Source: Candidatus Parcubacteria bacterium
GTDB taxonomy: Bacteria > Patescibacteriota > Minisyncoccia > Phycocordibacterales > CALRHW01
Direction of reading: 5' to 3'
Assembly: GCA_009691505.1 (NCBI GenBank)
Contig: SICJ01000004.1
Span: forward strand, 1 to 33,764
DNA length: 33,764 bases
Below are positions 16,680 to 18,336 of this stretch, one piece after another. The first letter of the stretch is position 1. The number at the start of each line of letters is the position of its first letter. The translations under genes and the position numbers were made by a program. Below the pieces are notes generated by a model. The model made no database searches. It was not told the origin of the DNA and saw nothing but the letters and a program-made list of their open reading frames with translations.

Positions 16680-16706
16680 ATAACATTCTATATTTTGTTC
16701 CGTTCA
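16680..16706 (-). other. 3' arm of 16S long-range processing stem
   Basis: ATAACATTCTATATTTTGTTCCGTTCA pairs over 27 positions (including G-U pairs) with 18363-18389. Confidence 0.8.
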
Positions 16707-16829
16707 CATAGTCTTTCCTACTGTCATGCTACTTTAAGGATATTTAGCAATAATCCGTTTCTGAGCTCAATTGAGGCTCAGAAATCGACTGTAAGTTTTG
16801 GCACAAAAGTGACAAAACGATTTTCATTT

Positions 16830-18336
16830 GAAATACTCCACGAGCAGCTTCCGCTACCCGTGCCTTGTTACGACTTACTCCCTGTCATTGAGCTTACCTT
16901 AGGACCACATACGTGATATTTCGGGTATTCCCAACTCCCTTGAGTTGACGGGCGGTGAGTACAAGACTTGAGAACGTATTCACCGCAGTATAGCTGACCT
17001 GCGATTACTAGCAATTCCAACTTCATGGGGTCGAGTTGCAGCCCCCAATCTGAACTGGGGCGACTTTTCTTACGATTAGCTCAGGGTTACCCCGTCGCAA
17101 CGCGTTGTAGTCGCCATTGTATTATGTGTGTAGCCCCGGATATCAGAGGGACATGCTGACCTGGCGTCATCCTCGCCTTCCTCCCCGTATATTATGTCCA
17201 AACTCGCGATTACTCGCGCACTTGGGCACACTATACGGGGCAGTCTCGCCTGACAAATATAACAGGCAACAAGGGTTGCGTTCGTTACCCCACTTAAGGG
17301 AACAATTCAAACCACGAACTGACGACGGCCATGCATCACCTGCCTAACTGCCCTTGCGAGCTACTAAAGTTTCCTAAAGTATTCAGTTAGGTTTCAAACC
17401 CGGGTAAGGTTTTTCGTTTACCATCGAATTAAACCACATAATCCACTGCTTGTGCAAGTCCCCGTCTATTCCTTTGAGTTTTAACCTTGCGGTCGTACTA
17501 CCCAGGCGCTTCTCTTAACGCGTTAGCTTCGCCTCTCAGAGGGTCGATACTCCGAAAAGCTAGAGAAGATCGTTTAGGGCGTGGACTACCTGGGTATCTA
17601 ATCCAGTTCGCTACCCACGCTTTCGTGTTTCAGTGTCAGTAATGCACCAGTGAATTGCCTTCGCTTTTGGTGTTCCCCATGATATCAACGGATTTCACCC
17701 CTACTCCATGAGTTCCATTCACCCCTTGCACACTCAAGTCTTGCCGTTTCCTTCGCAGGTCCCCGGTTAAGCCGAAGAATTTAACAAAAGACTAACAAGA
17801 CCACCTACACACCCTTTACGCCCAATAATTCCGGATAACGCTCGGGGCCTCTGTATTACCGCTCCTGCTGGCACAGAGTTTGGAGCCCCTTATTCTTGAG
17901 GTACTATCAATAAACTTTCTCCCTCACAAAAGACCTTTACGTCCCTAAGGACTTCATCAGTCACGCGGCGTCGCTCCGTCAGGCTTTCGCCCATTGCGGA
18001 AGATTCTCGACTGCAGCCACCCGTAGGTGTATGGTCCGTGTCTCAGTACCATCGGTGGGGGTCAGCCTCTCAGCTCCCCTAGACGTCATAGCCTTGGTAA
18101 GCCATTACCTTACCAACTAGCTGATATCCCGCAGGCCTTTCCCAAAGCGATAAATCTTTACTCCTAAGAGACTATCAAGTATTAGCCAATCTTTCGACTG
18201 GTTATTCTTGACTTTGGGGGAAGTACCTACGTGTTACTACCTCGTTCGCTACTGTGCATTGCTGCACCGTTTAACTTGCATGCCTTATCCACGCCGCCAG
18301 CGTTCATCCTGAGCTAGGATCAAACTCTTAGTAAAA
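16830..18336 (-). rRNA. 16S ribosomal RNA
   Basis: 5' AGAGTTTGATCCTAGCTCAGGATGAACGCTGGCGGCGTG; 3' GTAACAAGGCACGGGTAGCGGAAGCTGCTCGTGGAGTATTTC; about 1.5 kb, no large insertion. Confidence 0.97.

Follow-up and report, generated by a model that had tools for sequence, protein, structure and literature searches.

The window, a stretch of 33,764 nucleotides from an uncultured Candidatus Parcubacteria bacterium, is contig 15 of a reduced genome in draft form (G000), with 465,688 bases in 24 contigs. Its minus strand carries a complete 16S rRNA gene, which is matched over its full length by the Rfam model RF00177 (1-1533, 1359.7 bits, 18335-16826) and is the only copy in an assembly that is 93.6% complete. 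The anti-Shine-Dalgarno (anti-SD) tail at the 3' end of 16S rRNA is among the most conserved sequences of bacteria and almost universal, and ribosomes locate gene starts with it; at this locus another sequence takes its place. The gene and the elements of its precursor are the following:

16826..18335, minus strand: 16S rRNA gene (RF00177 match, single match in the whole assembly)
16839..16862, minus strand: helix 45, intact; CACGGGTAGC (16862-16853), GGAA loop (16852-16849), GCTGCTCGTG (16848-16839)
16826..16838, minus strand: 3' tail GAGTATTTCAAAT, in place of GATCACCTCCTTA (read directly from the sequence)
16822..16833, minus strand: small hairpin TTTC-AAAT-GAAA, overlapping the tail in the precursor (RNA fold)
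about 18362..18386, minus strand: 5' arm of the 16S precursor processing stem (duplex with 16707-16681, -41.7 kcal/mol)
about 16681..16707, minus strand: 3' arm of the 16S precursor processing stem (duplex with the 5' arm; its ACGGAACAAAA-type motif is recurrent in many relatives)
16645..16678, minus strand: terminator-like inverted repeat followed by a T run (read directly from the sequence: AAAAATCACAGGCACGTGCCTGTGATTTTTG)

The 3' end of the 16S gene and its precursor

On the minus strand GTAACAAGG (16871-16863) directly precedes helix 45, which folds into a 10-bp stem. Variants with compensatory changes, such as CACGGCTAGC..GCTGGTCGTG, occur in relatives, so that the fold and the relatives bear out an earlier note's description of this helix as intact with compensatory changes. 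The positions that correspond to E. coli 1532-1542 read GUAUUUCAAAU and, counted from helix 45, UUUCA (16833-16829) is the counterpart of the E. coli CCUCC at 1535-1539; the full tail is GAGUAUUUCAAAU versus the usual GAUCACCUCCUUA. As the same note had stated, the stretch from helix 45 to the 3' processing arm is free of CCTCC. The gene thus has the full-length model match, helix 45 and the GGAA loop of a bacterial 16S rRNA without the CCUCC tail, and its identity still stands because exceptions without CCUCC are known. The processing stem encloses the 16S rRNA and the odd tail in one precursor and contains no CCTCC, which speaks against an exon placed elsewhere; a displaced 3' exon, already considered unlikely in the note, was rejected on these grounds.

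Several further observations concern the surroundings of the gene. Protein genes lie in the stretch of about 8.6 kb that separates the 16S gene from the 5S gene upstream of it (16826-31377), and the rRNA genes are therefore unlinked. A tRNA-Ile(GAT) gene (15942-15868) follows the 16S gene. The 23S rRNA gene (27141-31377) spans 4.2 kb and is interrupted twice, by group I introns at 28102-28307 and at 28700-29128 (minus strand). The 16S 3' trailers of two same-genus genomes (L001 and L017) are two substitutions apart, GTAGGAAAGACTAT versus GTCGGAAAGACGAT, and these look compensatory.

Distribution and conservation of the altered tail

A separate metagenome-assembled genome of the same genus (G001) has a 3' tail identical to that of the window. 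Across the order, helix 45 could be read in 169 of 247 sampled genomes by a pattern search that needs near-exact matches to this helix and leaves genomes with introns or variants there unread, and in none of the 169 does the genome's own 16S rRNA carry CCTCC, a pattern far outside what chance would produce. Among 101 distinct tails the motif is found in none within the first 13 nt and in one within about 65 nt, and relatives that are 100% complete and have a single 16S gene are also without it. The sole match in the order belongs to a second 16S fragment near a contig start of one genome (G128:C6:263-305, L062) that has the canonical GGATCACCTCC. Its helix 45, GTAGCCGTATC-GGAA-GGTGCGGC, is unlike that of the order, while the genome's own 16S rRNA ends in GGAACATATCCAAT without CCTCC; this foreign-looking fragment is probably contamination, and no second 16S copy with CCUCC was found otherwise. 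Near-identical 16S ends occur in genomes named Candidatus Taylorbacteria, Zambryskibacteria, Nomurabacteria and other Parcubacteria/Paceibacterota. The same-genus genome and the order-wide pattern rule out an assembly error. Together with UUUCA at the CCUCC position they confirm the central claim of the earlier note, that this 16S rRNA is without the anti-SD sequence. The sequence-based ones among its proposed checks gave the same answer: no further 16S copy that could bear CCUCC was found in the assembly, the SSU model matches over its full length and the readable tails of relatives in the order likewise have no CCUCC.

The altered tail is conserved in its own right. The first 12 nt, GGAWUAWUUCAA, are shared across the order and conservation falls sharply at the next base. 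In a logo of 51 distinct tails picked without regard to the tail sequence (GGAWTAWTTCAA), all 12 positions but one (0.75 bits) contain 1.0-2.0 bits, and information drops from 1.76 to 0.38 bits immediately after the block. Since the classic tail is of similar length, this boundary is probably the mature 3' end. In 31 of the 51 tails a complement of the TTC[A/C] core lies a short way downstream, compared to 19.2 (maximum 26) in 2000 permutations that swapped the downstream parts among relatives; longer segments (positions 6-9 and 6-10) did not exceed the permutations in pairing with the downstream sequence. The excess at the core points to a small hairpin that the precursor is likely to form at this place.

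Outside the order, the class presents a decay series. CCTCC was counted by hand from the listing in 37 of about 110 readable genomes, and the remaining tails range from single changes (GATCATCTCC, GAACATCTCC) over larger ones (GATTTTCTCC, GAACATTTCC, GATCATATCC) to complete loss; the forms met in other orders include CACCUCC, CAUCUCC, CAUUUCC, UUUUCUCC and none. In a phylum sample of 153 genomes, helix 45 was readable in 97 and followed by GANNNCCTCC in 89. Three of the eight exceptions belong to the order (window genome included), three to the class and two to other classes, where the CCUCC tail is kept in 88 of 90 readable genomes. These last two (G254:C21:8430-8464 and G291:C24:4477-4511) have helix 45 without GANNNCCTCC and are possibly further independent changes.

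In a quick 16S tree of 112 rows, built with helix 45 and the tail excluded, the order is a single clade (support 100) nested in a larger one that has no CCUCC at all. The distribution of canonical and non-canonical tails requires five changes on this tree, at least two of which are forced by strongly supported branches, so that repeated loss of the anti-SD sequence is likely. Their exact number stays uncertain, since the tree has many weak inner branches and does not recover the class cleanly. Read from these sequences, the 16S tail of the order ends in the conserved GGAWUAWUUCAA block instead of GGAUCACCUCCUU, and the loss spans the order, with partial decay in other orders of the class.

Gene starts and initiation factors

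Gene starts were taken as the leftmost ATG of open reading frames with a minimum length of 110-130 codons, so that SD motifs had no influence on the choice of start, and about 450 of the 466 kb of G000 were covered. The SD-like 4-mers AGGA, GGAG and GAGG are not enriched at -18 to -4 (4.4% of genes versus 5.8% in the upstream control). The same method applied to 50 kb of E. coli as a positive control gave 45.9% versus 8.1%. The complement of the new tail (TTGAAA, TGAAA, TTGAA) is likewise not enriched before the starts of G000 or of a second member of the order (G087), and duplexes of each genome's own tail with positions -20 to -3 are no better than those with upstream control windows (-2.97 versus -3.32; -1.64 versus -2.44). 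Bases -12 to -1 of G000 genes are A-rich and G-poor. AAATA is enriched before starts as part of this general A-rich signal, and it is about as frequent just inside genes.

A different signal was found at a fixed position. The -10-like element TANNNT lies exactly at -12 of the ATG in 64 of 369 genes in G000 (background 3.2%, p=6e-28) and in 63 of 260 genes in G087 (p=2e-32), compared to 0 of 40 genes in E. coli. At this spacing transcription would begin at the ATG, as for leaderless mRNAs, and about 17% of G000 genes have a -10-like element so placed. The peak is also seen in genes less than 40 nt behind another gene, some of which may have their own leaderless promoter. With shares of about 17% in G000 and 24% in G087, most starts need another explanation. 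As far as these sequences go, no SD motif, old or new, is enriched before genes, and a sizeable share of genes have a -10-like element that would set the transcription start at the start codon.

Two class members with other tails were analyzed in the same way. G491, which has kept CCTCC, shows a weaker -12 peak (23/252, p=2e-10) and little SD enrichment; leaderless signals alone therefore do not set the order apart. In G472, whose tail reads AACATCTCC, SD motifs (AAGGAG) are somewhat enriched and a clear -12 peak is missing. These single genomes suggest that SD use declines before the anti-SD site is lost, a sequence of events that the little SD use of the CCUCC-bearing G491 fits.

RsmA/KsgA dimethylates the loop of helix 45. 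It is kept in most relatives, the same genus included, and gave no match in the 93.6% complete G000 draft. Era reads GAUCACCUCC together with helix 45 (PMC10582724), and in none of 31 relatives was an Era match above the cut-off obtained, weaker matches covering just the shared GTPase part. The era gene is reported to be mostly absent from Paceibacteria and missing in most CPR bacteria (PMC12641178), so that its loss cannot be the sole cause of anti-SD loss. bS21 had no match in G000 and weak matches in 7 of the 31 relatives, and as this protein is short and divergent its absence is not proven. IF2, IF3, YchF and RNase III are present, as is a protein of 388 aa with several S1 domains.

Origin and possible role of the replacement tail

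The locus very probably encodes the functional 16S rRNA of a Paceibacteria (Parcubacteria, CPR) lineage that has truly lost its anti-SD sequence, initiates translation through leaderless mRNAs and A-rich leaders and has resettled its tail. Initiation would rely on leaderless mRNAs and unstructured A-rich leaders, and IF2, IF3, YchF and the S1-type protein may assist it. Once genes had stopped using SD motifs and Era was gone, selection on CCUCC would relax and the tail would decay, eventually to settle on a new conserved sequence that may serve 3'-end processing or protein contacts and not mRNA pairing. The earlier note's inference that SD:anti-SD pairing is not normally used in this lineage is supported by the single 16S gene, the identical same-genus tail, the order-wide absence, the lack of an SD or alternative SD motif, the leaderless-type promoter signature and the lack of an Era match above the cut-off. 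The scale, order-wide with graded intermediates in the class, was understated in the note and the conserved replacement tail was missed.

Three other explanations have to be weighed. A CCUCC end might exist after all, through an exon placed elsewhere, editing of the RNA or another 16S copy, or the window might be misassembled here; the incompleteness of the draft, the group I introns that interrupt its 23S gene and the split appearance of the 16S genes of several relatives leave some room for this. It is nevertheless the least probable of the three, given the identical tail of the separate same-genus genome, the stem around the odd tail, the near-complete lack of CCTCC in the distinct tails and the complete single-16S relatives; moreover, a hidden anti-SD would have no pairing partner, as there is no SD before genes. 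Hardly more credible is a changed anti-SD, in which UUUCAA pairs with a new UUGAAA motif before genes. Conservation of the tail at the place of the anti-SD is what one would expect of a site that pairs, but motif counts and duplex energies in G000 and G087 reveal no new SD that matches it.

A more serious competitor, still unlikely, accepts the loss of the anti-SD and holds that the tail merely decayed and is unconstrained, its conservation reflecting the precursor hairpin and shared ancestry only. Part of the block does pair with downstream sequence, with covariation, and the tails of other orders have drifted widely (GTTTAATTTTT, AACATAACTATA). Against this, dozens of families with divergent 16S rRNAs share a conserved WUAWUUCAA, positions outside the hairpin included, and the conserved stretch breaks off abruptly after 12 nt, which is roughly what a normal 3' tail measures. 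Beyond the resettled tail of the preferred reading, it is conceivable, if rather doubtful, that the order has replaced its anti-SD, and that UAWUUCAA has taken on a new function in the 30S subunit, for instance as the docking site of a protein such as the S1-type one or in giving the mRNA channel a shape suited to leaderless messages.

Loss of the anti-SD sequence is a known phenomenon. 16S rRNAs without CCUCC have been described for 128 taxids (Amin et al., 2018; PMC6107228) and for 266 prokaryotes (PMC10783764), including Chryseobacterium, Elizabethkingia, Riemerella, Blattabacterium, Mycoplasma and Carsonella; neither main text mentions Patescibacteria or Parcubacteria. In the sense of Amin et al. 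(2018) the window genome is anti-SD-less in every respect: helix 45 is present, the next 13 nt are without CCUCC in the one copy found in the 93.6% complete genome, SD motifs are lacking before genes and the trait is common to related genomes. It resembles the known cases in its intact helix 45, the 13 nt that follow and the absent SD motif, and differs from them in that a whole order of a large class is affected, that sister orders show the steps in between and that the tail which took over is itself conserved. In the searchable open-licence literature, no description of SD/anti-SD loss in Patescibacteria, Parcubacteria or CPR was found, nor of such a scale, intermediates or substitute tail; an earlier report elsewhere is possible.

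Other systems are similar in part. In Bacteroidia such as Flavobacterium johnsoniae, SD motifs are also unused for most genes, but CCUCC is present and held by bS21, bS18 and bS6 (PMC9976891); sequestration of this type was rejected here, CCUCC being absent and bS21 without a match in G000. Leaderless initiation, found in many archaea and in bacteria (PMC3160421; PMC9031893), shares the -10-like element some 12 nt ahead of the start codon and the lack of SD motifs, whereas in the window genome such initiation is predicted from sequence and most genes are without the -10-like signal. Mitochondria have likewise kept helix 45 and lost the anti-SD, but they keep an Era homologue (ERAL1), while Era was not found here.

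For genomes of this kind, SD-based gene-start prediction is invalid. According to a 2025 study of CPR ribosome biogenesis, in which the word Shine is absent, annotation of 16S 3' ends is often incomplete (PMC12641178), and a genuine lack of the expected tail could be part of the reason. The class, with its canonical, intermediate and lost states, provides a natural series for establishing the order in which SD use, Era and the anti-SD sequence were lost and what replaced them. If UAWUUCAA does have a new function in the 30S subunit, the order would possess a ribosome with a rebuilt initiation platform.
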